Source: an uncultured Alphaproteobacteria bacterium (lineage in GTDB: Bacteria; Pseudomonadota; Alphaproteobacteria; HIMB59). From it: DNA of 61,578 nt. Shown here one piece after another: positions 9,057 to 23,679 of the stretch. The notes beneath the pieces were generated by a model. It was not told where the DNA came from. It ran no database searches and worked only from the letters and a program-made list of their open reading frames with translations. The position numbers were made by a program, and so were the translations under genes. The stretch's first letter is position 1; each line of letters opens with the position of its first letter. The stretch lies in contig CACKOX010000005.1 in the NCBI GenBank assembly GCA_902601865.1, forward strand, positions 1 through 61,578, given 5' to 3'.

Positions 9057-9556
9057 TGCAATTATTTGCAGCTATAGATTTTGAAACAGCCACAAGTGAG
9101 AGAACATCAGCATGCGCTATTGGATATGTAATATTTAATAAAACTAAAATTATAAAAAAAGTCTCCCATTTAATAAGACCACCTAAACCTGAAGTTCATT
9201 TTACAGATATTCATGGTTTAACATGGGATATGTTAAAGAAAGCTAAAACATTTGAAAAAGTGTGGCACCAAATTAAGAGTGAATTATCAGCTGTTGATTA
9301 CTTTTTTGCACATAATGCTCCTTTTGATCGATCTGTCCTACATTCTTGTTGTTATTTTTATAATATTGACCTACCTAAACAGGAATTTAAAGATACTGTT
9401 GCAATCGCAAGAAAATATTGGGAATTTGAAAACAATAAACTAAATACAGTATGTAAAAATTTAAGAATTCCTTTAAATCATCACGATGCATTATCAGATG
9501 CTAAAGGATGCGCTTTGATAGTTATTGAGGCTTTTAAAAAAGGTTATTTTATTTAA
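9056..9556 (+). CDS. DnaQ-like 3'-5' exonuclease (DEDDh family)
   Basis: A 166-residue stand-alone exonuclease domain. ExoI is 'AAIDFETA' with Asp8 and Glu10, ExoII 'FFAHNAPFDRSVL', and ExoIII 'NHHDALSDAKGCA' with the general-base His and last Asp. This DEDDh arrangement is that of the DNA polymerase III epsilon-like exonucleases. It lacks a polymerase-binding tail or BRCT domain, so it is probably a small repair or RNA-trimming nuclease and not the replicative proofreader. It is the last gene of the run from 5869 and overlaps the convergent MFS gene by 8 bp. Confidence 0.88.
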   Translation: MQLFAAIDFETATSERTSACAIGYVIFNKTKIIKKVSHLIRPPKPEVHFTDIHGLTWDMLKKAKTFEKVWHQIKSELSAVDYFFAHNAPFDRSVLHSCCYFYNIDLPKQEFKDTVAIARKYWEFENNKLNTVCKNLRIPLNHHDALSDAKGCALIVIEAFKKGYFI

Positions 9557-10742
9557 TTTTATTACCAATAAAGCTCATAGAAGAAAAAATAATTATTAAG
9601 GCAAGGCTCATATAGATTAAGGTGTTTATCGAATTTGTCTCATCCAATATCAAACCGTATAAGAAAGGGGAAGCTGCTGAGGCCAAAACACCAAAAAATG
9701 TTAAAAGGGCCCTTATTGACCCTAGGTTTTTGACTCCATACATTTCTGCCCACAAAGAATTAGACATATTTTCTGTAAAGCCATTTGATAATCCAAGACC
9801 TGCCATGTAAAGATATAACACAAATATATGATTTGAAAATAACATCACAATAAATATTAAAGCCATGGGAATTAAGTGAAATGTGATTACTCTCCTACCA
9901 GAAAATTTATCGACTAACAAACCAGAAACTAATGAACCACCAATTCCACAGATTGCATAAAAAATAAAACTTTGTGCAATATCTAACATTGTCCAATTAT
10001 TTAATTGCCCAATAAAAACTTGATGAAATAAAAAACCAGTTACTGTAAATGACATAAATAATGTAAGAGGTAAATAAAGATAAAATTTAAGATCTTTTAA
10101 AACATCTCTTCTTCTCCAAGAAAATGAATTTTGTATATCTTCATTCTCAAACCCAGTTTCACTTTGAAAATTATTTTTATTTAATAGGTAGTATAAAAAT
10201 ACTCCGAAAAATATTATTATAAATAGAGATGAACTAAACCAGGTAATTCTCCAGCCAAAAGTTAATATTAAAATTACTACTATAAATGGATAAATCATCT
10301 CACCAAAAGAGAAACCAAATCCAGATATAGCTAATGCTTTTCCTCTATTAGCTTTAAAATATCTTGCCATAGTTGTTCTTGAAGTGTGCCCCATAAGCCC
10401 TTGTCCAAAAAGTCTTAAAAAATAAATTACAAAAAAAAGAAGAACTACATTAAATACAACACCTGCAAAAAAACACGTTATCGAAAGACCTAATACAATT
10501 GTTAAAGTATATTTTTTGAGAGAAACTGTATCTATAAGTTTGCCAGCCCATATAATTGTTAACGCACTTAAAATTGTAGCTATTGAATATAGACTGCCAA
10601 ACTGCGTATTACTTAGGTTAAATGTTTCTCTGAAATCTTCACTAAAAAGAGAAATAAAAAATGTTTGTCCAAACCCTGATGCAAATGCTATTAAAAAGCC
10701 AAATATTAATAAATTTGAATTTTTATATATAAAATTAATCAA
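9549..10742 (-). CDS. MFS transporter
   Basis: A 397-residue, about 12-helix membrane protein of the major facilitator superfamily. 'FLIAFASGFGQTFFISLFSEDFRETFNLSN' spans helix 1, 'GKLIDTVSLKK' is the loop 2-3 motif, and the second half has the matching 'GLLVDKFSGRR'. The 'R..LG.G' surroundings in helix 4 ('YFLRLFGQGLMGHTSRT') resemble the oxalate/monocarboxylate group. It is a single gene, convergent with the exonuclease. The substrate is not identifiable. Confidence 0.88.
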   Translation of the reverse strand: MINFIYKNSNLLIFGFLIAFASGFGQTFFISLFSEDFRETFNLSNTQFGSLYSIATILSALTIIWAGKLIDTVSLKKYTLTIVLGLSITCFFAGVVFNVVLLFFVIYFLRLFGQGLMGHTSRTTMARYFKANRGKALAISGFGFSFGEMIYPFIVVILILTFGWRITWFSSSLFIIIFFGVFLYYLLNKNNFQSETGFENEDIQNSFSWRRRDVLKDLKFYLYLPLTLFMSFTVTGFLFHQVFIGQLNNWTMLDIAQSFIFYAICGIGGSLVSGLLVDKFSGRRVITFHLIPMALIFIVMLFSNHIFVLYLYMAGLGLSNGFTENMSNSLWAEMYGVKNLGSIRALLTFFGVLASAASPFLYGLILDETNSINTLIYMSLALIIIFSSMSFIGNKIK

Positions 10743-10805
10743 AACAAGAGGGATATTATGATTAAATGACTATATATCAATTATTATAAGTGAAAGGACT
10801 GGCTA

Positions 10806-11213
10806 GTGAGCACAATTAAAAAGATAAATGATGAAAGTCATCCAATTGTAGAGGACATCTATAAAGACATTAAACAAACAAGGAATACAAGCTATATAGG
10901 TAATTTTTGGAAATATTTAGCTTTCGATCCTAATTTACTCAAAAATGTTTGGACTGATATAAAAAATATAATGATTAAAGAGTCTATAATCCCCAATAAG
11001 ACAAAAGAAATGATTTATATGGCTGTTTCTATTACTAACAATTGTAGTTACTGTACGCACTCACACACAGCTGCAGCTAAAAAAATGGGTATGACTTCAG
11101 ATGAGCACTCTGAATTTTTAAGTGTCATAGCGTTGGCAGCAAAAACAAATCAATTGGTAAATAGTATACAGGTACCAGTAGATGAAATTTTCAATGAAGA
11201 TATAGAAAAATAA
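10806..11213 (+). CDS. AhpD-like / carboxymuconolactone decarboxylase family protein
   Basis: A 135-residue helical protein with the AhpD active-site motif 'NNCSYCTHSHTAAAKKMG' (CxxC followed by His). In AhpD-type members the cysteine pair is redox active and reduces peroxiredoxins; other members are decarboxylases. The CxxC favours a peroxidase-related redox role. The start is GTG at 10806, with a good ribosome site (GAAAGGA) about 10 bp upstream. A 33-residue membrane peptide begins 4 bp after its stop. Confidence 0.85.
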   Translation: MSTIKKINDESHPIVEDIYKDIKQTRNTSYIGNFWKYLAFDPNLLKNVWTDIKNIMIKESIIPNKTKEMIYMAVSITNNCSYCTHSHTAAAKKMGMTSDEHSEFLSVIALAAKTNQLVNSIQVPVDEIFNEDIEK

Positions 11214-11627: not shown

Positions 11628-12746
11628 TTAATCTAAATTCTTAAAACCGTAACCAGTTTTTTTTACTCTTGTTTTAAAATAATTTTTATTAAATTTATTT
11701 ATAGTAGGTTTTGTATTTATTTGTTTAACTATTTTAATACCAGCTTTTTTTAATGATGATACTTTAGTAAAGTTATTAGTGATTATATTGACTTTATTTA
11801 CTTTTAGTAACTTCAACATTTTAGCAGCTATATTAAAATCTCTTTCATCATCTAAAAAACCTATATTGTGATCAGCATCAATTGTATCCAAACCTTTCGA
11901 TTGAAGAGAATAAGCACGCATTTTATTAGCTAGACCAATCCCTCTGCCTTCTTGATCTAGATATAATATAATTCCACCTTTATTTTTAATCATATAGTTG
12001 ATGGAATTATTTAATTGCTCTCCACAATCACATTTTCTAGAGTGAAATATATCTCCCGTAAAACATGCAGAGTGTATTCTAAGATTTGTGGGCTGTTTTA
12101 AATTTTCTGGTTTAATTATAATTGCAATATGTCTTCTAGCACCAATATAAGATTTAAAAATATTAAAAGATGTTGATGCCACATTAGGGAGTGGAACATT
12201 AGCACTGGAAACCAATTTTATACTATTTGTGATAAATTTATTCTGATTTTTAAGTTCTTTGTGATTAAATTTTAACAAACCAAGTTGTAAAATTAGATTA
12301 TCAATATTCTTATAATATTTAGAATTAATTTTTTTAAAAACAAGTGAGGGAATGACTTTAGCATTTTTAGCTATATCTAAGCAGACATTATGAAAGTCTC
12401 TACTTTTATTGCGAACCACATCTTTAAATAATAATTTATTTTGATTAGATAAGGGGTTAATAAATAAATTTAAAATTGATTTATTGGATATTTTATCATC
12501 AATTTTTAAGAATATATTTGATGTTATTTTATTATTGAAAACAGATTGTGCTTTTTGTTTTGTTATTAAAAGATATTTTTCCTTTAGTAAGTATTTATTA
12601 AATTGATTTAGAATTTTATTCTCAGAGTGTTCAATATTAAAGAACATCCAATAGTTTTTATTCTCTTTTATAACTATTGGTCTTCCCGTTCTTAACTCAT
12701 TAATAGATCTATCAATAAAAGTACCAAAATTTGATTTTAAACTCAT
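11628..12746 (-). CDS. ribA: GTP cyclohydrolase II (RibA-type) with alphaproteobacterial N-terminal extension
   Basis: A 372-residue protein. The C-terminal ~200 residues are GTP cyclohydrolase II: the zinc cysteines in 'HSACFTGDIFHSRKCDCGEQL', the catalytic 'LDQEGRGIGLANKMRAY', and 'THNIGF'-like 'DADHNIGFLDDERDF'. The enzyme opens GTP, releasing formate and pyrophosphate, to give a diamino-ribosylamino-pyrimidinone phosphate. The N-terminal ~170 residues ('INELRTGRPIVI...') are the weakly conserved extension found in alphaproteobacterial RibA; no dihydroxybutanone phosphate synthase motif is visible. It is divergent from a RibD-type reductase with only 38 bp between, at one end of a seven-gene pterin-like cluster, so it may feed a special product and not riboflavin. 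Confidence 0.9.
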   Translation of the reverse strand: MSLKSNFGTFIDRSINELRTGRPIVIKENKNYWMFFNIEHSENKILNQFNKYLLKEKYLLITKQKAQSVFNNKITSNIFLKIDDKISNKSILNLFINPLSNQNKLLFKDVVRNKSRDFHNVCLDIAKNAKVIPSLVFKKINSKYYKNIDNLILQLGLLKFNHKELKNQNKFITNSIKLVSSANVPLPNVASTSFNIFKSYIGARRHIAIIIKPENLKQPTNLRIHSACFTGDIFHSRKCDCGEQLNNSINYMIKNKGGIILYLDQEGRGIGLANKMRAYSLQSKGLDTIDADHNIGFLDDERDFNIAAKMLKLLKVNKVNIITNNFTKVSSLKKAGIKIVKQINTKPTINKFNKNYFKTRVKKTGYGFKNLD

Positions 12747-12784
12747 AGACTATATATATACTCATTGACTGTTGATACAGATGA

Positions 12785-13618
12785 TTGATGATAACAAAGC
12801 ATAATATTTCCTCTTTATTTGAGTTCGTAAAAAATCAAAAAAAATCAAATAATTTAGGAGTTGATTTAATTAACAAATCGTTTGTCCTTAGTCAACATTC
12901 TAAAATAGCTGATATCTCAATAGACAAATATAAAGTTGTTTTTAATTGTAAAATTGAAAAAAAGATTAAAGAAATAGGCCAAATATTATTGCCTATCTTG
13001 ATGTTAAAAAAAAAATTTTATATTGGACAAATAGGCCAAAGCTTAGATGGTAAGATTGCTCTTTTAAATGGTAATTCTCATTATATAAACGATAAAAATA
13101 GTATTTCTTATCTTCATAGTCTTCGTTCGATATGTGATGCTGTGGTAGTAGGGGTTAACACTATTAGAAAAGATGATCCTTTATTAACTACAAGAGCTAT
13201 TAAGGGGCCAAATCCTCAACGGATAATTATTGATCCCTCTTTAAAATTAACAAATAAATATAAAGTGTTTAAAGATGGTATGCCTAATATTATATTTACC
13301 CATTCTAAATTAAATAAAAAATTTAATAACACTCAAATATACAAATTACCTGAAAGAAATTTTACCAATCTTATTTACCAAAATATTAATAGATTAGGAT
13401 ATAAATTAGTATTAGTTGAAGGCGGATCTAAAACTATATCTAAGTTTCTAGAAAATAGATTATTAAATATTATGCAATTTATTATTGCACCAACTATTAT
13501 CGGCTCTGGAATTAATTCTATAAATATTGAGCCTATAACTAATTTAAAAAATGTTATAAGGACCAAAAACAATATTTTTAAGTTTGGTAAAGAGATTATT
13601 GTAAGTTTAGAGTTTTAA
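12785..13618 (+). CDS. RibD C-terminal-type (DHFR-fold) pyrimidine reductase, no deaminase domain
   Basis: A 277-residue protein whose last ~200 residues form the RibD reductase domain: 'GQIGQSLDGKIA', 'AVVVGVNTIRKDDPLLTTR', 'PQRIIIDPSLKLT' and 'KLVLVEGGSKTISKFL'. It would use NADPH to reduce the ribosyl side chain of the GTP cyclohydrolase II product to ribityl. The ~75-residue N-terminal region shows no HxE or PCxxC zinc motif, so the deaminase half of bifunctional RibD is absent. An adjacent ATG at 12788 is an equally good start. It shares a 38-bp divergent spacer with the cyclohydrolase gene and overlaps the convergent methyltransferase by 12 bp. Confidence 0.85.
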   Translation: MMITKHNISSLFEFVKNQKKSNNLGVDLINKSFVLSQHSKIADISIDKYKVVFNCKIEKKIKEIGQILLPILMLKKKFYIGQIGQSLDGKIALLNGNSHYINDKNSISYLHSLRSICDAVVVGVNTIRKDDPLLTTRAIKGPNPQRIIIDPSLKLTNKYKVFKDGMPNIIFTHSKLNKKFNNTQIYKLPERNFTNLIYQNINRLGYKLVLVEGGSKTISKFLENRLLNIMQFIIAPTIIGSGINSINIEPITNLKNVIRTKNNIFKFGKEIIVSLEF

Positions 13619-14395
13619 AGCTAAAAAATCTTTATTCCTTAATAATAATTTAGATTTATTAAGTCTGATATTTTCCCTTCTAAATTTTATCCACGGTTCT
13701 AGGGAAATTTTATTTTTTTTAATAACGTTTTCGCAAAAGTTTATAAACATGTCTTGAAACATTTTATTTTTGGACACATTCCAATTTGAATTAAGTACAA
13801 AAGTTTTATGAGTTTTTGTGAAAACTTTATTTATTATTTGACTACAATTTTTTCCAACAGCTTTTTTTCCAATTCCTTTATCAGACTCCTGATCTTTATT
13901 AAATAGTTTTAGAACATATTCATCATCTTTGTGTTTTGGATAAAATTTAAAATATCCATCATAATTAATTGAAAAATATATTACTTTTGTATTTAAGTTC
14001 TGTTTCTTAAATTCACGAAACCACTTTTTGGGCATTATATCTAAATATGCTGATCCAGTGATAAGATCGTAATTTTCAAATTTAAATTTTTTTATATCTT
14101 TAATTAAATCAAATTTTTTATAATTAATATTAATAATTTTATTTGTATTAGCTGTTATTTTTTTGAACTCTTTGATTGATTCAAAAGATATATCAATCAT
14201 ATCCCATTTTTGCTTAACCTTTATCTTAGGATACATATATCTATAGTTTGATCCTGTACCACATCCTAAATCTGCTATAGACAATATTTTATAATCTTTA
14301 AAATATTTGTTTATTTTTTTGATTATTTTTTCATTTCTTGAAATTGCATCAATCTTTTCTCTATAAAATAGCCAATCATTATTAAATTTATGCAT
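13607..14395 (-). CDS. class I SAM-dependent methyltransferase
   Basis: A 262-residue Rossmann-fold methyltransferase. The SAM-binding loop 'IADLGCGTGSNYRYM' is near residues 40-54, with the acidic strand-2 end 'WDMIDISFESI' and 'NYDLITGSAYLDIMP' as motif IV. The substrate is unknown. It overlaps the glycosyltransferase upstream by 8 bp and sits last in a minus-strand operon with that gene, a pterin-synthase-like gene and a dehydrogenase. This suggests it methylates a small molecule made by the cluster and not DNA or protein. Confidence 0.85.
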   Translation of the reverse strand: MHKFNNDWLFYREKIDAISRNEKIIKKINKYFKDYKILSIADLGCGTGSNYRYMYPKIKVKQKWDMIDISFESIKEFKKITANTNKIININYKKFDLIKDIKKFKFENYDLITGSAYLDIMPKKWFREFKKQNLNTKVIYFSINYDGYFKFYPKHKDDEYVLKLFNKDQESDKGIGKKAVGKNCSQIINKVFTKTHKTFVLNSNWNVSKNKMFQDMFINFCENVIKKNKISLEPWIKFRRENIRLNKSKLLLRNKDFLALKL

Positions 14396-15431
14396 TTTTA
14401 ATTTCCTTTATGAATAAGTCTGCTGACTGTATAGGTGTTAGAAACTTTCTTTGATTTTTTATGATTTTGTTTTGAATTTTAACATTATTAAAATTTCTTA
14501 ATATCAATTTTGACAAACTTTTTTCTTTAAAATCATTAAGATATATAATTCCATCTTTTTTAAGTGTGTTCATTAAAGTTAGAGTTTTAAATGTGATTAT
14601 CATTTTTTTTTGCTGTAGGGCATTTGCAAGGGACATCCCAAATCCTTCATATCTACTAACAGATATATAAAAATCACACTGTGAATATAGCTGTGATAAA
14701 TGTTTTGTTGAGATATTGCTATAAAAACTTATTTTTTCTTCTAGTCCATAATTACTAATTATGTTTTGTAATTTGTTATAATATTTGCTCTCTCTGGTTG
14801 TATCCCCAACAATTTTTAATTTTACATTATCAATAAATCTTAATTCTTTAATGAGATATTGGTAATTTTTTCTCTCAATAATACTGCCAACTGATAGCAA
14901 ATTAATATTTTTATCTTTTTTGACTTTAAATTTTTTTAATTTTTCAATTCCAGGCTCTACTATTTGAATTTTTTGTTTATTTATTTTAAATTTTTGAGCA
15001 ATTAAATTTTTTGTTTCATTTGAAGTGACAATAATTTTGTTAGCTTTTGGATATAATTGCATTGCTTGCTTAACAAAATATTTACTTCTTTTACTTTTAA
15101 ATTCTAAATAAATAGGGTGATGTATTAATGCTATTATTTTGAACCTTTTAAGATTGAATATGATTTTATCAATAGTTTCAAAGACTAGTCCATCAAAAAC
15201 TAAAACTGAATTATCTGATAGTTTATTTATAATATTTTTAAGAGTGCTGATATCATTTTGTTTTTGAAAAGGATAATTTTCACTTAATTGAATAGCTTTT
15301 AAATTAAAATTTAGTGTCTTAGCTCTTTGTAAAATATTTTTTTCATATATATATCCACCTGTTTTAGTATTAATGTCTCCAGGATAGAAAAAATAGTAGG
15401 TTCTATTTGATTTCGTTGATATTTTGTTCAT
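14388..15431 (-). CDS. family 4 glycosyltransferase (GT-B fold)
   Basis: A 347-residue GT4-type enzyme. The C-terminal nucleotide-sugar domain carries 'INLLSVGSIIERKNYQYLI', 'KLKIVGD' and 'SVSRYEGFGMSLANALQQKK'. In that last motif the usual EX7E second Glu is Asn, a change worth noting for catalysis. The N-terminal acceptor domain begins 'TYYFFYPGDINTKTGGYIYEK'. Its start overlaps the pterin-synthase-like gene by 29 bp and its end overlaps the methyltransferase by 8 bp, so it belongs to the same transcript. A small-molecule acceptor, such as a pterin, fits the context better than a cell-wall polymer; this is inference. Confidence 0.85.
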   Translation of the reverse strand: MNKISTKSNRTYYFFYPGDINTKTGGYIYEKNILQRAKTLNFNLKAIQLSENYPFQKQNDISTLKNIINKLSDNSVLVFDGLVFETIDKIIFNLKRFKIIALIHHPIYLEFKSKRSKYFVKQAMQLYPKANKIIVTSNETKNLIAQKFKINKQKIQIVEPGIEKLKKFKVKKDKNINLLSVGSIIERKNYQYLIKELRFIDNVKLKIVGDTTRESKYYNKLQNIISNYGLEEKISFYSNISTKHLSQLYSQCDFYISVSRYEGFGMSLANALQQKKMIITFKTLTLMNTLKKDGIIYLNDFKEKSLSKLILRNFNNVKIQNKIIKNQRKFLTPIQSADLFIKEIKNA

Positions 15432-15810
15432 AAGAAGCCCAAGCTACATTTGACTCGGTTAGAATAATTTTAATTTTATGTAACTTGTCATAATCTTCTG
15501 AGTATTCTTTTTGTAACTTTGAGCTTATTTTATCAAATATATCTTTAGCTAGGAATTCAGTAGATGTTATTGTGTTTTTAAATTCTTCAATTTCATCTAA
15601 ATTTTTGTAACTATAAAATTTAAGTACATCAGATAGTATCTCTGTTACAACTCCTAAATCCATAATAATATTATATTTATTAACTTCTTTTGCATAAAAC
15701 TCTGCATCAACTATATAGGTTGCACCATGCATATTTTGGGCGGGACCAAAGACTTCTCCAGGTAGGGAATGTGCTATTAAAATATTGTTTCGTACTGTTA
15801 TTGAATACAT
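15403..15810 (-). CDS. 6-pyruvoyl-tetrahydropterin synthase/QueD-like protein with altered zinc site
   Basis: A 135-residue T-fold protein of the PTPS/QueD superfamily. His14 ('IAHSLPGE') and His28 ('NMHGATYIVD') match two zinc ligands, but the usual HGH is HGA, so the third His is Ala30. The catalytic Cys four residues before the His pair is Ala24. The 'TSTEFLAKDIF' helix and the Glu in 'ILTESNVAWASYE' remain. It is therefore unlikely to be a standard queuosine or biopterin enzyme and may act on a related pyrimidine or pterin. It follows the dehydrogenase gene after 1 bp in the same operon. Confidence 0.8.
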   Translation of the reverse strand: MYSITVRNNILIAHSLPGEVFGPAQNMHGATYIVDAEFYAKEVNKYNIIMDLGVVTEILSDVLKFYSYKNLDEIEEFKNTITSTEFLAKDIFDKISSKLQKEYSEDYDKLHKIKIILTESNVAWASYEQNINEIK

Positions 15811-15811
15811 A

Positions 15812-16774
15812 TCAATACTTTATAGCATGCATTACGCTGTCTGGATTATTTATTATTGAAATATAATTTTTATCTAATTTGTTAAAGTCACTCTCTGTAT
15901 TGACCAGTTTGAGAAGTTTATTATTAGACAACGCATCGATTGCCATGTTCAATCTACTTTTATAATTAAATCTTTTTGACATATATCTTGGTATGTTCGA
16001 AACCTGAGAGCCAATTATTTTAAGTCTTTTGGAGTGAAAATTCCCTCCCAATTTGATCTGTCCTTTTTTATTACCATACCAACTTGCTTCAATTAATTTT
16101 CCTTCTAATGTTAATTTATCAAGAGACTGATTTAATACTTCATAATTAGATGTAGTGTTAATTATTACATCAGCTTCTTTAATTTTTTTAAAATTAGTGA
16201 ATTTTAATCCTAATATTTTTGAAAACTTCTTCTTTTTGATATTATTGTCAGTGATATATACATTTTTAAATTTTTTTAATTTATAGTAGTAAGCGGTTAA
16301 AATACCAACAGAGCCCATTCCTAAAATTACTATTTTGTTATTCTTATGTGCTTGAGCATCCCAAAAGATATTAATTGCTGTTTCCATATTTGCTGTAAGT
16401 AAATATTTTTTTAAATTATTATTACTTTTCAAGATATGCACATCATTTATATCCATTTCAAACAAGGACTGATGAGGAAAGAGACAAAAAGTTTTTTTAT
16501 TTAAATATTTTTTTGGACCATTGATAATTTCACCTACATTTATATATCCATATTTAATCGGATAAGAAAATGTTCCTTCTTGAAAAGGTGATTTCATGAT
16601 TTTAAATTGATCTTTACTAATTTTACCTGAGGCAACTAATTTCTCTGTTCCTTTACTGATACCCGAATAGTGTGTCTTGATGAGAACAGTTTTAGAATTT
16701 ACTTTAAAATTTAAAGATTTTTTCTTGATAATTGGTTTATTTTTATTTTCAAGCCATAGAGAATAAGTTTCCAT
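15812..16774 (-). CDS. medium-chain (zinc-type) alcohol dehydrogenase family protein
   Basis: A 320-residue MDR-superfamily oxidoreductase. The N-terminal GroES-like domain has 'HYSGISKGTEKLVASG', like the BchC-type branch, without the usual catalytic Cys-His zinc set. The Rossmann domain has 'IVILGMGSVGILTAYYY' with an acidic residue ending strand 2 ('VYITDNN'), suggesting NAD+. It heads the four-gene minus-strand operon (dehydrogenase, PTPS-like, glycosyltransferase, methyltransferase) and is divergent from the creatininase-family gene across 29 bp. A role in oxidising or reducing a side chain of the cluster product is inferred. Confidence 0.82.
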   Translation of the reverse strand: METYSLWLENKNKPIIKKKSLNFKVNSKTVLIKTHYSGISKGTEKLVASGKISKDQFKIMKSPFQEGTFSYPIKYGYINVGEIINGPKKYLNKKTFCLFPHQSLFEMDINDVHILKSNNNLKKYLLTANMETAINIFWDAQAHKNNKIVILGMGSVGILTAYYYKLKKFKNVYITDNNIKKKKFSKILGLKFTNFKKIKEADVIINTTSNYEVLNQSLDKLTLEGKLIEASWYGNKKGQIKLGGNFHSKRLKIIGSQVSNIPRYMSKRFNYKSRLNMAIDALSNNKLLKLVNTESDFNKLDKNYISIINNPDSVMHAIKY

Positions 16775-16803
16775 AATAATTATATAAATGTTAAATATCA
16801 GTT

Positions 16804-17562
16804 ATGCTATCAAAGTTTTGGATTGATTTAACTTCAGATGACATAAAAAAATTAGGTAAAAATAAAGTACTTATTATGCCTTTTTCATCAGTTGAGCAAC
16901 ATGGCGACCATCTACCTTCAGGTACTGATAAATTGATTTTAGACGGTATTTTAAATACTTTTATTAAAAACAATCCAAAATTAAATAACTTTTTAGTTTT
17001 ACCAAATATCTCAATAGGATCAGCAAGTGAGCATAATAGCTTTGATGGTACTATCTCAGCAAGCTCTACAAATTATATTGAATACATTATTAGTGTAGTA
17101 GAGGAGTTATGTATTCGTAAATATAAAAAATTTATTTTCTTAAATAGCCATGGAGGACAAATCAGTCATTTAGATATAGCTGCAAAAGAAATTAAAAGTA
17201 CATTCAAAAATGTCGATATAGTGAAGGCTCACTATTTTTTGTTTAAAGGTTTTGAAAAAATTATTCCTAAAAAAGAACTTCTTTATGGTTATCACGGAGG
17301 TGAATTTGAAACCTCAATTATGCTTCATCTTCACCCAGAATTGATAAAAATTAATAATATAAAAAAAAGAAGTCTATCATCTGATGTTAATTCAAAAAAA
17401 ATTATTTCTTATGAAAAAATAATAAAAAGAGCTTGGAATACTAAAGATTTGTCAAAAACAGGCATAATAGGCAATCCTAAAAACTCCTCTGCGGATAAAG
17501 GAAAGAAAATCCTAGATCTTACATCAAGGACCCTAAAAAAAATAATTGATGAAATGAAATAG
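16804..17562 (+). CDS. creatininase-family amidohydrolase
   Basis: A 252-residue protein with the metal-binding pattern of the creatininase fold: Glu31 and His33 in 'SSVEQHGDHLP', Asp42 in 'SGTDKL', His116 in 'LNSHGGQ', and Glu167/Glu169 in 'YHGGEFETS'. Family members cut cyclic or formyl amides: creatininase, the archaeal formamidopyrimidine deformylase ArfB of riboflavin/F420 synthesis, and the mycofactocin peptidase. Beside a GTP cyclohydrolase II and RibD-type reductase, an ArfB-like or pterin-ring-opening activity is attractive but unproven. It is divergent from the dehydrogenase gene (29-bp spacer) and ends 1 bp before the tRNA-Cys CCA. Confidence 0.85.
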   Translation: MLSKFWIDLTSDDIKKLGKNKVLIMPFSSVEQHGDHLPSGTDKLILDGILNTFIKNNPKLNNFLVLPNISIGSASEHNSFDGTISASSTNYIEYIISVVEELCIRKYKKFIFLNSHGGQISHLDIAAKEIKSTFKNVDIVKAHYFLFKGFEKIIPKKELLYGYHGGEFETSIMLHLHPELIKINNIKKRSLSSDVNSKKIISYEKIIKRAWNTKDLSKTGIIGNPKNSSADKGKKILDLTSRTLKKIIDEMK

Positions 17563-17811: not shown

Positions 17812-18246
17812 ATGGTTAATGATAAAAAATTATTAATTTTAATCGATCATATTAACAGTTCATTATCTCTGTTTAAAAAAAAATTCAAAAATTCTAATTT
17901 TGAAACTGATTGGAAAATTTTTTCATTTTGTATCAAAAATAATATTCAAAATAAATTAACTAATATTACCAGTCTTATAAATATATCTGGTCTGCCTCAT
18001 TCAACAGGTCTAAGAAAAATAAATAAATTAATAGAAGAAAAAAAACTTATCAAAAGATCCAAAACTAGTTCTGGAAAATCTTTCTCTATTCATCCTTCTT
18101 CAAAATTGATTGAAGATCTTGTTTCTTATCTAAATTCTATTAATAATTTATTAGAACCAAAATCATTAACAGAAAATCAAACTGATAGATTCCCCACAAC
18201 TATATCGTTATCCTCAAGATACGTGCTCTATCCTCGAATACACTAA
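17812..18246 (+). CDS. winged-helix (MarR-like) transcriptional regulator
   Basis: A 144-residue protein with a helical N-terminus and a winged helix-turn-helix around residues 45-90: 'LTNITSLINISGLPHSTGLRKINKLIEEKKLIKR' is turn, recognition helix and wing entry, followed by 'SSGKSFSIHPSSKLIE'. It looks MarR-like but the C-terminal dimer helix is short and the tail ('SRYVLYPRIH') is odd. It is the only obvious regulator beside the catabolic region. It is therefore a candidate for the palindromic operator found before both binding-protein genes, though direct evidence is lacking. Confidence 0.65.
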   Translation: MVNDKKLLILIDHINSSLSLFKKKFKNSNFETDWKIFSFCIKNNIQNKLTNITSLINISGLPHSTGLRKINKLIEEKKLIKRSKTSSGKSFSIHPSSKLIEDLVSYLNSINNLLEPKSLTENQTDRFPTTISLSSRYVLYPRIH

Positions 18247-18262
18247 TATAAGTATAAAGTTT

Positions 18263-19411
18263 TTAATAAATTGAAATAATTCTGGCAGGCGCTACATTAC
18301 ATTTAGCTATCTTTAATATACCAAATATTATTTTAGACTCTGGTTTTATTTTATCTAAATTTTCTAGGTTTATAAAAATTTTACTAACATATTTATGTAA
18401 TTTATTAATTTCTGTTAAATTTGGTTGATTTGATAGACATAATACTTCAACTTTAATATTCTTGATTTTTTGTATCAAAAGCTCAAAATCAATTTGATTA
18501 TTATCTATTATCAAAATTTCTTTATCTTTGTCATTTATTTCAGAAAGATTTTTTACTTTATCAAATCTATCTACTACTAATTTAGTAAACATTTCTTCAT
18601 AATACTTATTATCTGAGGCAATAAACATAGTATGAGTAAAACCTGATAACAAAAAACCTGTTTCTTGGACCTGATCTCCTTTATCGAAAGATAAAGTTAA
18701 AAAGCTTTTAAATGAATTATCGTTTATCATATCTTTTGAATGATCAATGATAGAGTATTCTCTCTTATCTAATCCTTGTATTGAGATAGGCATACAGTTA
18801 CCACCATCTGCTTTTGGTAATTTAATAGGTAATGCACAAATAAATACCTCATTATTTTGAATCTTTTCTAATTTTATTACGTGTTCAACATGCATAACAC
18901 CTGCACCCAGAACTATTTGATGCTCAGTAAATTCTTTATTCATGACCACTCTATGCTGTAAGTCTTTAGCGGCTCTATCCTGGGGGAAGTCAAATATTAT
19001 TGATTTAATTTTTTTAGAAATAAGTAAATTTGACCCACTATCTTCTAGGTACGGTGAGTTTATCCAATATTCACTTGATGTATTTGGGTATATTTCATTT
19101 AAATTACTTTTAAGAATAACTATATCTCCACTGTTTACACTTTGAATTTTATCTTCTAGAACTTGACTAGTAATTGCTTTATCTCCAATACACTTAGAAA
19201 CATCAACTATTTTTGCCCAGCCACACAATAAATCTAAGTTACAATCACTTAACGACTTACCATTTTGTATCATGTGGGACGGTGCATCGACATGAGTAAA
19301 GCCATGTTTGGTTACTTCAATTTCAAAACTCTCCAAAGAATTATAATATATATTCGACGACCAGTTCCAATGATCTCCTATAACATTTGAGTGGTTGATG
19401 GATTTAAGCAT
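18263..19411 (-). CDS. double-domain cyclase family protein, active N-terminal half
   Basis: A cyclase (KynB, arylformamidase-like) protein of 382 residues from ATG 19411; a TTG at 19426 would add five residues. The N-terminal half has the metal motif 'HGFTHVDAPSHM' (HxDxPxH) and 'IIFDFPQDRAAKDL'. The C-terminal ~150 residues look like a second cyclase fold that has lost it: 'SGFTHTMFIASDN' stands where the motif should be, and 'NVAPARIISIY' is the typical cyclase end. Such enzymes hydrolyse formyl amides or cyclic amides using a metal. It is divergent from the PotD-like gene and may share its operator. The gene at 20716 has the opposite half intact. Confidence 0.8.
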   Translation of the reverse strand: MLKSINHSNVIGDHWNWSSNIYYNSLESFEIEVTKHGFTHVDAPSHMIQNGKSLSDCNLDLLCGWAKIVDVSKCIGDKAITSQVLEDKIQSVNSGDIVILKSNLNEIYPNTSSEYWINSPYLEDSGSNLLISKKIKSIIFDFPQDRAAKDLQHRVVMNKEFTEHQIVLGAGVMHVEHVIKLEKIQNNEVFICALPIKLPKADGGNCMPISIQGLDKREYSIIDHSKDMINDNSFKSFLTLSFDKGDQVQETGFLLSGFTHTMFIASDNKYYEEMFTKLVVDRFDKVKNLSEINDKDKEILIIDNNQIDFELLIQKIKNIKVEVLCLSNQPNLTEINKLHKYVSKIFINLENLDKIKPESKIIFGILKIAKCNVAPARIISIY

Positions 19412-19478
19412 AAAGGAACATATCAAATATGAAAAGATTCAGTAATAATTTTATTGAAAAAATTATTAAAATTATAAA

Positions 19479-19493
19479 TGTCCAAAATGAACA
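19479..19493. promoter_or_regulatory. palindromic operator TGTCCA-N3-TGAACA (copy 1)
   Basis: An imperfect 15-bp palindrome, followed by ATTTAAAATTT, in the divergent spacer between the cyclase gene and the PotD-like gene. The same element, there a perfect palindrome, lies at 30952-30966 before the second binding-protein gene. Distance to the start codon is 65 bp here and 67 bp there. The centre falls near -50 relative to the likely transcription start, a position more usual for an activator. The regulator is unknown; the HTH protein at 17812 is a candidate. Confidence 0.65.
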
Positions 19494-19502
19494 ATTTAAA
19501 AT

Positions 19503-19531
19503 TTACTGTTGTAATCCTTATGTATTATAAT
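19503..19531 (+). promoter_or_regulatory. likely sigma-70 promoter of the PotD-like gene
   Basis: TTACTG (19503-19508) and a consensus TATAAT (19526-19531) are separated by 17 bp. The predicted start of transcription is near 19538, about 20 bp before the ATG. The palindromic operator ends 9 bp upstream of the -35. Confidence 0.6.
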
Positions 19532-19558
19532 TTATTTTTTCTGTATAAGGAGGAAGTA

Positions 19559-20659
19559 ATGAAAAAAAATAAATTTAGTAGAAGAAAATTTATTAAGTCT
19601 ACAGCTGCTACAGCTGGTCTAATAACTTTGGCTCCATACGGTTTTGTGAGAAACTCATGGGCAGCGTCAGAAGTTAATGTATTAGCATTTGGTGGTTATG
19701 AAGAACCAGGCATGTTGGATGCTTTTGAAAAAAATTCTGGCATAAAAGTAAATTTGAAAATACATGATGGATCAGATGAAGAAATGGTTGCCCTCATTAA
19801 GTCATCAGCACCAGGAACATTTGATTTAATTACACCAACAAGTGCTTATATCCCACAGGCAGCCAAAGATGGTTTATTAATGGAGTTAAATCCATCTGAT
19901 TTTCCATTAGAAGATTATTTTAGCATCATTGCTAATTGGCCACCTTGCTACATCGACGGAAAAATGTACGCAATCGTTAATAGATTTGGTTACTATGGCA
20001 TAACATATAATCACAATAAATTTAGTGAGTCTGATGTCTCTAGCTATGATGTTATGTTTGATAGTGCTAATAAAGGTAGAGTTGCTTTATTTGATTGGTT
20101 TTTACCAAATATGGGTTGCATGTCAAAGTATAATGGTAATGCAAATCCATATGATTTAAGCGGTTCTGAGTTTAATGCACTTAATGATACATTGTCTAAT
20201 TTAAGACCTAATGTTGGATTTATAGGTAATACCTCTCAAGTGATACAAGCCATGGCAAGCGAGAGCTATGATCTTGCAATTGCAGGTGAGTGGGTTCAAG
20301 CTGGAATGTATGACGATGGACTTCCATTTAAAGCTTTAGTTCCAAAAGAGGGTGGAGTTACTTGGGATCAAGCAGTTTGTATTGCAGCAAATACACCAAG
20401 AAAAACAAATGCTATTAAATTCCTTAGGTATGTAACTGAACCTGACTTTCAGGCTAAGTTAGCTACTGCTAAAACTTATTATAGTATGGTACCTAACAAG
20501 AAAGCTGCCTCAAAGTTACCTATGGATAAGAGGGAACTATTGAACCTCGCAGATATAGATAAATTTGATGAGGTATTTATGGCTAATCTTTCCCCAAGAA
20601 AATCACCTGATAATAGAGAAGAGTGGTTAAATTCTTGGGAGTCATTTAAAAACTCCTAA
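19559..20659 (+). CDS. PotD-like ABC transporter substrate-binding protein, Tat-exported
   Basis: A 366-residue periplasmic binding protein of the spermidine/putrescine type. The start is ATG 19559, preceded by a strong AAGGAGG; upstream Met codons lie in the promoter. The leader has a twin-arginine motif 'SRRKFIK' (Arg8-Arg9) and a hydrophobic stretch ending 'NSWAA', so it should be exported folded by the TatABC genes near the right end. The mature part has 'VLAFGGYEEPGMLDAFEKN' and 'GVTWDQAVCIAANTP', typical PotD/PotF features. An operator and promoter lie upstream and a strong terminator follows, before its permease operon. The exact ligand is not readable. Confidence 0.9.
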   Translation: MKKNKFSRRKFIKSTAATAGLITLAPYGFVRNSWAASEVNVLAFGGYEEPGMLDAFEKNSGIKVNLKIHDGSDEEMVALIKSSAPGTFDLITPTSAYIPQAAKDGLLMELNPSDFPLEDYFSIIANWPPCYIDGKMYAIVNRFGYYGITYNHNKFSESDVSSYDVMFDSANKGRVALFDWFLPNMGCMSKYNGNANPYDLSGSEFNALNDTLSNLRPNVGFIGNTSQVIQAMASESYDLAIAGEWVQAGMYDDGLPFKALVPKEGGVTWDQAVCIAANTPRKTNAIKFLRYVTEPDFQAKLATAKTYYSMVPNKKAASKLPMDKRELLNLADIDKFDEVFMANLSPRKSPDNREEWLNSWESFKNS

Positions 20660-20674
20660 AATATATTATAATCT

Positions 20675-20702
20675 AAAAGGCCAGATATATCTGGCCTTTT
20701 TT
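20675..20702 (+). terminator. Rho-independent terminator after the PotD-like gene
   Basis: AAAAGGCCAGA-TATA-TCTGGCCTTTT forms an 11-bp perfect stem with a GC core and a T-rich tail. It lies 15 bp after the stop codon and 13 bp before the next gene. Partial read-through would give more binding protein than permease. Confidence 0.9.
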
Positions 20703-20715
20703 ATTTATTTTAACA

Positions 20716-22065
20716 ATGTCTCAAATAATAGATTGTTCACAAAGAATTGAAGCTAATTGGAATTGGAATACAACAACTTTTATTTCACAAGCATATAAAA
20801 ATCATGATCAATTTCAAGAATTTGGACTTAAATGGTGTGGATCAGGATTTACATATATAACAACTCCAAAATGGATAAATAATAAATATAAAAGTTTAGA
20901 TAACTATGACTTGAGCTTATTTTGTGGTCCTTCTGTAATTATTGACTTACCTAATGGAGAAAAAATTGAAAGTAGTCATATTGAAAAAGAACTTCAAAAT
21001 ATAGATAACATTAATGAAATTAAAATATGTATTATTTCAACCAAACATTCAAAAAATTACACTACAAAAGATTTTAATTATTGGAGAAAAACTCCAATAT
21101 TAGATGTAAACTTAATCAATATACTTAAGAAATATGAAATTAAGCATTTAGTTTTAGATTTTAATTGTGAGAGTATTTTATCCAAAAGATCTGATGAAAA
21201 AATCAATTTTATAAATCCTAATGAAAATTTTAAAATTCAACTTCTCGAAAATGATATTGTTCTTACAGAAAACTTTGTTTCAAATAATACAAACAACAAA
21301 AGCTACTATATAGGTTTACCGATCTCAATACCTAATGGCTCAACATCACCAACAAGACCAATTCTAATAAATGATTGGTTTAATAAAAATGGAAAAATTA
21401 TTGATTTGTCAACACCTTTATTTAATCATTGGAGGTGGAAGCTTGATATATGGGAGAATAATTTTAATGATCATACAGGGCAACCAAGAAATGAGACAAA
21501 TTTTATTTTCTCAGGACATGGATTCAATCATTGCGACGCACCTATTCATATGAATCATGATGGAAAAACTATCCAAGAACTTCCAAATGAAGGGTTAGAT
21601 ATTTTTATTAATGAAGCAAATCTCATTGATATGAGTGAATATGAATTACCCTTTAAAGTTTCCAAAGAAATCATCGAAAGTAAAATTAGAAATCAAGATA
21701 AAAAAAACTTAATAATTCTAAGAACAGATCTAACAAATAAAGTTGGTTATGAAAGTAAGGAATGGCATTTAAAAGCCCCTTCTATAGAGTTAGAAGCTGC
21801 AAATTGGATTGTTGATAATGAATTTAAATCAGTTTGTTTAGATTTTCCTCAAGATTTCATTGCAAGGGAAATGCCAAATAGAATGGTTTACAATGAGGAA
21901 TTTGAAATTCATCATAAAATATTTGATAATGGTATCACTTTTATCGAAGATTTAATGAATTTAGGTGAAATAACTAAAAAAACTACTCAAATTTGTGCAA
22001 TACCTCTCAAAATGGACTGTTTTGATGGAGCACCCATGAGGACTGTTGCAATTGATTGGTCTTAA
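20716..22065 (+). CDS. double-domain cyclase family protein, active C-terminal half
   Basis: A 449-residue protein of two cyclase-like halves. The C-terminal half starts at 'GKIIDLSTPLFNHW' (~226) and holds the metal motif 'HGFNHCDAPIHM' with His272, Asp274 and His278, then 'VCLDFPQDFIAREMPNR' and the end 'GAPMRTVAIDWS'. The N-terminal half has the same outline ('IIDCSQRIEANWNW', 'HLVLDFN') but reads 'GFTYITTPKW' at residues 44-53, so the metal residues are gone. This mirrors the gene at 18263, which keeps its N-terminal site. It begins the long catabolic operon after the terminator; the permease follows with a 20-bp overlap. Confidence 0.8.
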   Translation: MSQIIDCSQRIEANWNWNTTTFISQAYKNHDQFQEFGLKWCGSGFTYITTPKWINNKYKSLDNYDLSLFCGPSVIIDLPNGEKIESSHIEKELQNIDNINEIKICIISTKHSKNYTTKDFNYWRKTPILDVNLINILKKYEIKHLVLDFNCESILSKRSDEKINFINPNENFKIQLLENDIVLTENFVSNNTNNKSYYIGLPISIPNGSTSPTRPILINDWFNKNGKIIDLSTPLFNHWRWKLDIWENNFNDHTGQPRNETNFIFSGHGFNHCDAPIHMNHDGKTIQELPNEGLDIFINEANLIDMSEYELPFKVSKEIIESKIRNQDKKNLIILRTDLTNKVGYESKEWHLKAPSIELEAANWIVDNEFKSVCLDFPQDFIAREMPNRMVYNEEFEIHHKIFDNGITFIEDLMNLGEITKKTTQICAIPLKMDCFDGAPMRTVAIDWS

Positions 22066-22903
22066 TAGAAAACCTGTAATTAATCTGTGGTATGGCGTGT
22101 TGCCATGTTTGTTATTGATGACATTTTTTTTTATTTTTCCAATATTTCATACATTAAGATTGAGCTTTTTAGACCCAAATACTGGTGTATTTACTTTTAA
22201 TAATTATTTTGCTTTTTTTTCTAAAGATATTTTTTATGACTCCTTTTTCAGAACTTTAAAATTATCTTTTTTTGTTATTTCTTTTTCAGTAATCTTGGCT
22301 TTTCCTCTGGCTTATTTTATATGTTTTGTTGTAAAAAAAAAATTTAGAACTTTAGCATTATTGATTCTTGTTGCTCCATTTTGGACTAGTTTTACTATTA
22401 GGGCTTTTTCATGGCAATTAATACTATCTGATAAGGGTCTCGTGACCTGGCTCATTAATAAATTAACTGGGTACGAAGTTAAACTTAATTTTTTATATAC
22501 TATGAATGCATCAATATTTGGTTTAACATTATTTGGAGTAATGTTAATAACATTATTGTTATTTAATTCTATGATAACAATAGATAAGAGATTGCTTGAA
22601 GCAAATTCTGATCTTGGTGGGAATAAATTCACTGAAATTAAAAACATCATCCTTCCTTTAAGTTTACCAGGTCTGATTATTGGAAGTGTTTTAACATTTA
22701 TTATTGCTGTAGGAGACTATGCAGTGCCAACATTGCTTGGTGGCGGTTTTAAACCTGTCTTGGCTCAATTAATGCTTTCTACAATTAAAGGAACTTTTGA
22801 TTTGAATACGGCAGCTACTATGGCCATCTTGCTTGTAATTGTTATTATTATTGCCTGCATACCACTTTTAAGTTTAATTAAACAAATAAGGTTTGAGAAA
22901 TGA
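22046..22903 (+). CDS. PotB-like ABC transporter permease
   Basis: A 285-residue inner-membrane permease with about six helices. The EAA loop that touches the ATPase reads 'LEANSDLGGNKFTEIKNIILPLSLPGL', the form found in spermidine/putrescine permeases. The start is a TTG at 22046, 20 bp inside the cyclase gene; a second TTG at 22052 or GTG near 22094 cannot be excluded. It overlaps the next permease by 4 bp, and the ATPase follows. Together with the Tat-exported binding protein these form a complete polyamine-type importer. Confidence 0.88.
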   Translation: MQLIGLNRKPVINLWYGVLPCLLLMTFFFIFPIFHTLRLSFLDPNTGVFTFNNYFAFFSKDIFYDSFFRTLKLSFFVISFSVILAFPLAYFICFVVKKKFRTLALLILVAPFWTSFTIRAFSWQLILSDKGLVTWLINKLTGYEVKLNFLYTMNASIFGLTLFGVMLITLLLFNSMITIDKRLLEANSDLGGNKFTEIKNIILPLSLPGLIIGSVLTFIIAVGDYAVPTLLGGGFKPVLAQLMLSTIKGTFDLNTAATMAILLVIVIIIACIPLLSLIKQIRFEK

Positions 22904-23679
22904 AAAAATTTTCCCTATTAAATAATTTTCTATATATCTTATTTGCCACAATTGTTTCTCTTATCTATTTACCAATTCTTGTCATGATTGTATTTTCTTT
23001 TAACTCTAGCAAATATCAAATCATGCCTTTTAGAAATTTTACAACTACTTGGTATCAAAGGGTTCTAACCGATAGTCAGTATATTGAAGGTCTAAGTAAT
23101 AGTTTAATTGTTTCAATCTCCGTATCACTGTTCGCAACTTTATTAGCTTTTTTCTGCGCTTATTCTCTAGTAAATTCCAATTTTAAAGGAAAAAGTTTTC
23201 TAAATTTATTCTTTTTAACTCCTCTTGTAGTCCCTTTGATTTTAATAGGAATTAGCTTAAGATTTTTTTTAACTTCAAAAGGATATGAGCCTTCATTATT
23301 TTTAGTTGCAATAGGGCAATCTATTTTTGTAATGCCCTTGGCTATACTGAATCTTTCTAATAGAATGTCACAAATTCCAAAAAATCTTGAGGAAGCTGCC
23401 TGGTCTTTAGGCTCGTCAAGACTCAGAAGTATGTTTGAAATAGTTCTTCCTTCTTGCAAATTTTCATTAATTGCTACCTTTATTCTAACTTTTACCTTTG
23501 CTTTTGATGAATTTATTATTGCTTACTTCTTAACAAATTTTTCTATTACTCTACCTATAAAAATTTGGACTTCATTAGTAACTGGTTTTGATCCAGCTAT
23601 CAATGCTATAGGAACAATTGTATTTTTAACTTCTTTAACACTTGGTTTAATATCACAAATACTTTTTTTAAAAAAATGA
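22900..23679 (+). CDS. PotC-like ABC transporter permease
   Basis: A 259-residue partner permease with about six helices. It opens with 'FATIVSLIYLPILVMIVFSFN', as PotC proteins do, and its EAA loop is 'LEEAAWSLGSSRLRSMFEIVLPSCKFSL'. It should pair with the 22046 product in the membrane. It has 4-bp overlaps with the genes on both sides (ATGA type), pointing to coupled translation. Confidence 0.9.
   Translation: MKKFSLLNNFLYILFATIVSLIYLPILVMIVFSFNSSKYQIMPFRNFTTTWYQRVLTDSQYIEGLSNSLIVSISVSLFATLLAFFCAYSLVNSNFKGKSFLNLFFLTPLVVPLILIGISLRFFLTSKGYEPSLFLVAIGQSIFVMPLAILNLSNRMSQIPKNLEEAAWSLGSSRLRSMFEIVLPSCKFSLIATFILTFTFAFDEFIIAYFLTNFSITLPIKIWTSLVTGFDPAINAIGTIVFLTSLTLGLISQILFLKK

Follow-up and report, generated by a model that had tools for sequence, protein, structure and literature searches.

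What do seven closely packed genes in the DNA of an uncultured alphaproteobacterium make? The window analysed here, by which we mean the whole stretch of 61,578 nt, is contig C5 of a 1.22-Mb genome (G000, 85% complete; lineage HIMB59), and at positions 11628-17562 it encodes GTP cyclohydrolase II (RibA), a RibD_C reductase, a methyltransferase (MT), a GT4-family glycosyltransferase (GT), a T-fold protein of the PTPS-IV subfamily, a dehydrogenase (DH) with a medium-chain dehydrogenase/reductase (MDR) fold, and a creatininase-family amidohydrolase. A sequence-only reading had taken these genes to be a cluster for an undescribed pterin- or lumazine-like compound, glycosylated, methylated and made from GTP. 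The observation is confirmed and that interpretation is partly supported: we hold, with moderate confidence, that the seven genes are a compact marine version of a widespread cluster for a glycosylated, methylated small molecule derived from GTP. The evidence consists of direct observations of gene content, conservation, residues kept or lost, partner genes and a swap of cyclohydrolases among relatives.

A gene set that recurs around one dehydrogenase

The DH gene served as the marker of the cluster. Of 385 genomes of the window's class, 45 carry this family (counting the window's own; limit E 1e-8), with one match in each and a weakest E of 4.1e-36; for the whole phylum the figure at E 1e-30 was 27 of 398 genomes. 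A scan of one genome per species gave at least 595 stretches and at least 572 confirmed DH loci, of which the best 80 were used. The marker is thus present in about one ninth of the sampled class genomes, as well as in halomonads, Streptomyces and haloarchaea, yet no product has been found for it: literature searches by gene names, with an incomplete coverage that left most subscription papers outside, returned no account of the cluster or of what it makes.

Profiles were built from the first 40 loci and run on those 40 and on 80 new ones (120 in all), taking about 10 kb on each side or as far as the contig end. Neighbourhoods were included from 40 of the 44 class genomes that have DH besides the window's own; A1 omits L034, L039, L062 and L072, and two contigs are seen twice among the 120 loci (L035/L107 and L039/L163). 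As counts on the first 40 loci are partly a matter of construction, the 80 new loci were counted apart. All 80 have DH, and PTPS was detected in 76, MT in 72, GT in 69 with a threshold of 60 bits (71 if a weak match in each of two loci is counted), RibD_C in 67, RibA in 44 and creatininase in 34, so that the genes do stay together in relatives. For all 120 loci the corresponding counts were 115 (PTPS), 106 (MT), 106 (GT; 108 with the weak matches), 99 (RibD_C), 59 (RibA) and 42 (creatininase). Merging close relatives, by a choice of our own, gave 93 groups, and the 80 of these that have DH, PTPS, GT and MT are referred to below as the independent core loci; some are cut by contig ends. The loci with weak GT matches, L133 and L135, are outside the count of 69, yet both are within these 80 groups. 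In 69 of the 80, RibD_C is no more than 3 kb from the core. This co-occurrence appears to be more than chance would give, judged from recurrence in distant genomes.

Among the best 80 listed, the closest named records are uncultured Alphaproteobacteria from single cells or metagenomes, followed by records labelled Pelagibacteraceae or Pelagibacterales. Named hosts among the listed loci include Rhizobiales, Rhodobacterales, Halomonadaceae, Thioalkalivibrio, Gemmatimonadetes and Acidobacteria, and the cluster is also borne on annotated plasmids of Streptomyces, Microbacterium and haloarchaea. A single array in Chromohalobacter holds a phosphatidyltransferase, DH, PTPS, GT, MT, a flippase-like gene, RibD_C, RibA and creatininase; the Streptomyces fungicidicus locus brings together DH, PTPS, GT, MT, creatininase and RibA, with no RibD_C listed. 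A genome of the window's own genus, G030 (99% complete), gave no match to DH or creatininase.

A few loci differ in composition. At L145 and L172 a DH copy adjoins an OpgH-like glucosyltransferase, and no PTPS, GT or MT was found in the fetched stretch. On a Rhodococcus opacus plasmid (L235) a distant DH relative adjoins a DegT/DnrJ aminotransferase, the rest of the cluster being absent from the stretch shown. Haloarchaeal DH-PTPS-(GT)-MT clusters lie on large plasmids (L230, L231, L233, L234 and L244), and the L231 stretch also has a creatininase-family gene.

The word "undescribed" overstates the case, one part of the cluster being already in the literature. A 2017 paper had placed PF00925 (GTP cyclohydrolase II) and PF01872 (RibD_C) in the neighbourhood of PTPS-IV, as seen for its cluster-node 62 of 561 sequences (PMC5445326). 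The FGPAQ signature and these two neighbours are common to the window and to the PTPS-IV subfamily of COG0720 (PMC5445326; PMC5041015), whereas the accessible portion of the 2017 paper makes no mention of DH, GT, MT, creatininase, phosphatidyltransferase, flippase-like protein or GTP cyclohydrolase III in that neighbourhood (PMC5445326). Neither "GTP cyclohydrolase II" nor "PTPS" occurs in the accessible main text of a 2026 review of bacterial pterins.

Probable GTP ring opening and the steps that may follow

The best evidence that opening of the GTP ring feeds the cluster is that versions of this one cluster contain two unrelated first-step enzymes, with GTP cyclohydrolase III replacing RibA in Haloarcula. 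GTP cyclohydrolase III is unrelated to RibA and yields the formamidopyrimidine intermediate (FAPy) (PMC9478397). In Haloarcula halophila a PF05165 match (E 6.6e-81) lies directly upstream of DH, and the annotation "GTP cyclohydrolase IIa" stands at the same place in four of nine haloarchaeal loci examined, three of them Haloarcula, a count taken from an incomplete gene table with Pfam run on the first locus only.

The window RibA has the residues of a GTP cyclohydrolase II. Three Cys and a Tyr, found in HSACFTGDIFHSRKCDCGEQL and RAYSLQ, are kept; in E. coli RibA these are the zinc ligands and the catalytic Tyr. The same residues are kept in 60 of 60 non-Streptomyces RibA rows aligned. The one Streptomyces cluster copy aligned has Met at the Tyr position, the change that, in the 2006 account of Spoonamore et al., reportedly makes Streptomyces coelicolor SCO6655 stop at FAPy; the window enzyme, which keeps Tyr, differs in this from SCO6655. 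Towards the N-terminus, a region at about residues 10-143 matched six RibB proteins (hhalign probability 85.7, pairwise E 5.5e-06), and the N-terminal half of the window RibA is, by this comparison, a decayed RibB (DHBP synthase)-like domain.

In the creatininase-family protein E31, H33, D42 and H116, the metal ligands of the family, are kept in all 44 rows aligned. True creatininase was set aside as its identity: cluster members have N(S/G)HGG or SAHGG at the site where true creatininase has NGHYEN. A creatininase-family enzyme of Sinorhizobium, BrbF, deformylates FAPy to the diaminopyrimidine intermediate (DARPP) and is required for riboflavin there, and two more distant BrbF homologues tested in the same work failed to complement (PMC9478397). 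By analogy, the cluster protein may be a FAPy formamidase, and hence a first-step rather than a tailoring enzyme. The logic of a GTP cyclohydrolase with a separate formamidase would then be like that of BrbF (SMc02977) and archaeal ArfA/ArfB (PMC9478397).

The T-fold protein keeps its ring anchor and is without two residues of the canonical active site. F21, G22, P23 and A24 are present in 40 of 40 aligned members (window included) and Q25 in 38, which is the FGPAQ signature; position 24, the Cys of CxxxHGH, and position 30, its last His, are Ala in 40 of 40, and with the PTPS/QueD motif the catalytic Cys and the third zinc His are gone. Glu119, which we take to anchor the 2-amino-4-oxo ring, is invariant in 40 of 40 and again in 13 of 13 members that include five haloarchaea. 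The closest solved structure to the window protein is 3d7j (SCO6650; E 1.9e-32). Members of PTPS-I, II and III carry the canonical motifs CxxxHGH, CxxxxxHGH or ExxHGH. The signature of PTPS-IV is FGPAQ (PMC5445326).

RibD_C scores below the cut-off of the curated NCBIfam models of riboflavin reductases, and PTPS below that of QueD. The phmmer matches of RibD_C are to RibD (2hxv) and to DARPP-type reductases (6p8c, 2azn), and Pfam reported no deaminase domain in the window protein. The DH assignment is weak, with two matches below cut-off (PF00107, E 4.9e-04; NCBIfam BchC, E 7.3e-14); its model (predicted local distance difference test score 93.5) has an MDR fold, with best rows that include polyol dehydrogenases tied with many other MDR enzymes. 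Zinc alcohol dehydrogenases keep catalytic zinc ligands that include Cys, and no invariant or near-invariant Cys was seen in 37 or 35 aligned DH members. The MT model compared as a class I methyltransferase, again with many tied rows, and neither comparison points to a particular function. The cluster genes should not be read as queuosine, zinc alcohol dehydrogenase or creatinine genes, names that are used in plasmid records.

We infer each reaction of the following pathway, along with the order, the product and its use. RibA would open GTP to FAPy and on to DARPP, as in riboflavin synthesis, with the creatininase-family enzyme taking the formyl group off FAPy released by RibA. RibD_C would carry out an NADPH-dependent reduction without deamination, leaving the 2-amino-4-oxo ring in place; PTPS-IV might grip that ring through Glu119 and rearrange or close it by a non-canonical reaction; the MDR dehydrogenase could oxidise a side-chain alcohol; and GT4 and MT would decorate the product. 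Between the two ring systems originally proposed, "pterin-like" is favoured over "lumazine-like" because the cluster has no deaminase and the T-fold protein retains its anchor Glu, a residue that binds a 2-amino-4-oxo ring. Of the product originally envisaged, what stands is a conserved gene set that is fed by GTP and adds sugar and methyl groups; what shifts is that creatininase may belong to the first step and that the product of relatives may be lipid-linked. If the pathway is right, it gives a place to the PTPS-IV protein, to the Streptomyces cyclohydrolase reported to form FAPy, and to part of the "creatininase" family.

Counter-evidence and the probable overlap with riboflavin synthesis

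Several observations weigh against a GTP-fed pathway built from these seven genes. Only 31 and 16 of the 80 independent core loci have RibA and creatininase, respectively, at 3 kb or less from the core; contig ends explain part of what is missing, and many lineages must use a distant RibA or another precursor. A Tyr-type RibA such as that of the window may deformylate FAPy alone, leaving creatininase without a job. The haloarchaeal T-fold proteins have an HSH motif and not FGPAQ, and GTP cyclohydrolase III is adjacent in only four of the nine haloarchaeal loci (by the incomplete gene table). The RibA tree node that joins the Rhodobacter cluster copies, and with them all cluster-type RibAs, has a poor support of 0.095, and some cluster-linked RibAs are of the housekeeping type. 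A cluster-type phosphatidyltransferase was found in none of five genomes of the window's order. Finally, in G000 and in two other genomes, G259 and G337, no intact GTP cyclohydrolase II was found besides the cluster RibA, and the placement of this enzyme in the cluster could reflect riboflavin supply.

That RibA and creatininase are the least constant members would also fit a pterin glycoside made from the product of GTP cyclohydrolase I, dihydroneopterin triphosphate, with PTPS-IV and DH building the side chain, RibD_C (which has a DHFR-like fold) reducing the dihydropterin ring, GT and MT decorating it, and RibA and creatininase present as parked riboflavin genes. We regard this as possible but unlikely. 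The PTPS family and its anchor Glu are kept, and pterin glycosides, in which, as in the product proposed here, a sugar is joined to a ring made from GTP, are on record for cyanobacteria (PMC13259868) and Chlorobium (PMC5683033). It is hard to reconcile, however, with (i) the absence of the catalytic Cys and of the third zinc His from all 40 PTPS-IV members aligned, (ii) the recurrence of RibA or GTP cyclohydrolase III in the cluster in Proteobacteria, Streptomyces and haloarchaea, and (iii) the failure to find creatininase in G030, which is without the cluster. The cyanobacterial and Chlorobium glycosides start from GTP cyclohydrolase I, canonical PTPS and sepiapterin reductase, and we know of no RibA, RibD_C or lipid genes in their synthesis.

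Returning to the favoured pathway, its RibA appears to be shared with riboflavin synthesis. G000, G259 and G337 each have two PF00925 matches, a RibBA remnant and the cluster RibA, and the GTP cyclohydrolase II half of RibBA is without the zinc CxC motif in all nine cases read (these three, G030 and five other genomes; of 14 loci tried, nine gave rows, L183, L184, L185, L186, L097, L099, L100, L101 and L102, and five gave none). Because RibBA has lost this half and no other intact copy was found, the window RibA probably feeds riboflavin synthesis as well. Such sharing is not general, since in G161 a second RibA with the zinc Cys lies outside the cluster. In the RibA tree the window joins halomonad and other cluster RibAs at 0.868, and the cluster-free G030 carries, at a different site, a RibA that falls in the same clade (SH support 0.969). 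Deletion of ribBA causes no riboflavin auxotrophy in Sinorhizobium (PMC9478397), an observation on which the lost CxC of the RibBA cyclohydrolase II half may bear.

The remaining riboflavin genes lie elsewhere. In G259 a single operon contains ribD, ribE, ribBA and ribH (the names ribE and ribH were given by eye), in G337 a full-length RibD is encoded near RibBA, and G000 has RibBA and RibH at a contig edge, where contig C11 begins inside RibBA, so that the operon is cut there and no RibD is visible. A separate rib set, less the cyclohydrolase II half of RibBA, is thus present outside the cluster. Within the seven-gene cluster itself no intact ribB, ribE, ribH or RibD deaminase was found by open reading frame list and Pfam, in agreement with the sequence-only reading, which had also allowed that it would be refuted if this ribA and ribD-like pair were the sole one in the genome and complemented riboflavin loss. 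RibA is indeed the sole intact copy found in G000, G259 and G337; RibD_C is not alone in G259 and G337, and the separate second RibD of these two genomes supports a distinct pathway, as does the lack of a creatininase match in G030. A reading of G161 as having a deaminase-only RibD, with the cluster reductase its only one, was dropped, as the contig ends just past the match.

It is quite unlikely, given these data, that the locus is a riboflavin supply module in which RibA, a BrbF-like creatininase and RibD_C have fed riboflavin since the RibBA half was lost, with the other four genes as unrelated neighbours. The missing zinc Cys motif in G000, G259, G337 and G030, the need for BrbF in Sinorhizobium (PMC9478397) and the same-clade RibA of G030 would all be expected under such a module. 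The separate full-length RibD proteins of G259 and G337 would not, nor would the lack of RibA within 3 kb in 49 of the 80 independent core loci, of which 69 in all keep RibD_C; G161 keeps a RibA in the cluster with a second one elsewhere, and G030 has no creatininase match. A riboflavin-only main account was dropped because G259 encodes RibD, RibE and RibH in an operon apart from the cluster, and a riboflavin role was retained for RibA.

Lipid partners, weaker alternatives and the locus

In the 80 independent core loci several further families recur at no more than 3 kb from the core: CDP-alcohol phosphatidyltransferase (38), FkbM methyltransferase (23), an LPG_synthase_TM flippase-like protein (22), cytochrome b561 (16), a family of about 560 aa (16), an OpgH-like glucosyltransferase (15) and YceI (13). 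Pfam was run on a single member of each family or on a homologue in the corresponding position; the family of about 560 aa gave no Pfam match, and the pAt gene at that place is annotated "sulfatase". Neighbour families antisense to known genes were discarded as shadow open reading frames. Annotated loci of Streptomyces, Microbacterium, Agrobacterium and Thiodictyon likewise list the phosphatidyltransferase, as do five of nine haloarchaeal loci, and the Chromohalobacter protein used as a query had matches in 8 of 18 genomes. Because CDP-alcohol phosphatidyltransferase and flippase-like genes recur near the cluster, lipid linkage is suggested in relatives, many of which might use these two proteins to attach a lipid to the product and carry it through the membrane. 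The window cluster has neither gene beside it, and a lipid-linked product, plausible for many relatives, is unsupported for the window. Together, the cyclohydrolase swap and the lipid genes predict a metabolite that is labelled by guanosine, bears sugar and perhaps bears lipid.

A bolder proposal, which we think unlikely, is that the product is a membrane-linked redox cofactor of a new class, common to bacteria and haloarchaea. This would be a glycosylated, methylated pterin (or ribityl-diaminopyrimidine) made from GTP via FAPy/DARPP by a split route resembling that of cyclohydrolase I, in which RibA or GTP cyclohydrolase III, the creatininase deformylase and ring closure by PTPS-IV would share the work. 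A CDP-alcohol phosphatidyltransferase would attach the product to phospholipid, and after being flipped to the outer side it would act in the periplasm together with cytochrome b561 and YceI, whose genes lie near the cluster in some lineages; the window lineage would have a soluble, streamlined version.

The same partner genes could instead mark a cluster for a glycan or lipid of the cell envelope, with pterin-like enzymes recruited to unrelated sugar chemistry and a product that is neither pterin nor pyrimidine. The recurrence of OpgH-like glucosyltransferase, FkbM methyltransferase, CDP-alcohol phosphatidyltransferase and flippase-like genes would fit, as would the polyol dehydrogenases among the tied best rows of the DH model; we nevertheless consider it highly unlikely, since three GTP-pathway families (RibA or GTP cyclohydrolase III, RibD_C and PTPS) recur together and the residues for GTP chemistry and ring binding are kept.

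A step in the synthesis of coenzyme F420 (deazaflavin) is barely credible as the role of the cluster, even though an unpublished statement on archaeal PTPS-IV in section 7 of PMC5041015 calls it an F420 enzyme. Of the 45 cluster genomes, 7 have an F420 ligase (PF01996) match, as have 3 of 14 controls, and the other 38, G000, G259, G337 and G161 among them, have none, so that F420 is largely refuted for bacteria and the mismatch with it noted from sequence is borne out. We know of no role for a GT or MT in F420 synthesis. The F420 and toxoflavin pathways borrow the GTP ring-opening steps of riboflavin synthesis; the window cluster, with no RibD deaminase by Pfam, does not look like either.

The coordinates of the open reading frames agree with the seven genes, overlaps and 29-38 bp spacers first described, and Pfam agrees with the identities then given, DH being weakly assigned (Table 1). 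The divergent spacers measure 38 bp (RibA/RibD_C) and 29 bp (DH/creatininase); there are overlaps of 8 bp (GT/MT), 29 bp (PTPS/GT) and, where RibD_C and MT converge, 12 bp.

Table 1. Genes of the cluster, with positions in the window and supporting family matches
Product	Position	Strand	Family match
RibA, GTP cyclohydrolase II, 372 aa	11628-12746	-	PF00925, E 2.9e-47
RibD_C reductase without deaminase domain, 277 aa	12785-13618	+	PF01872, E 6.8e-29
Class I S-adenosylmethionine-dependent methyltransferase (MT), 262 aa, probably with a small-molecule substrate	13607-14395	-	PF13649, E 7.7e-07
GT4-family glycosyltransferase (GT), 347 aa	14388-15431	-	PF00534, E 5.3e-24
PTPS-IV T-fold protein, 135 aa	15403-15810	-	PF01242, E 5.5e-22
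MDR-fold dehydrogenase (DH), 320 aa, cluster marker gene	15812-16774	-	PF00107 and BchC, weak
Creatininase-family amidohydrolase, 252 aa, candidate FAPy formamidase	16804-17562	+	PF02633, E 3.2e-52

Beside the cluster, at 9549-11213, lie a major facilitator superfamily transporter and a carboxymuconolactone decarboxylase-family gene, and by tblastn these recur in 7 of the 120 loci, all of them closest relatives; four right-hand genes tested (17812-22065) recur in none of the 120. As the flanking genes tested rarely or never recur, 11628-17562 is a good boundary for the cluster. Three genes tested within 18263-23679 likewise recur in none of the 120 loci, and that stretch holds two cyclase-like proteins (the first matching PF04199, the second similar by eye) around an ABC transporter that looks to be of the polyamine type.

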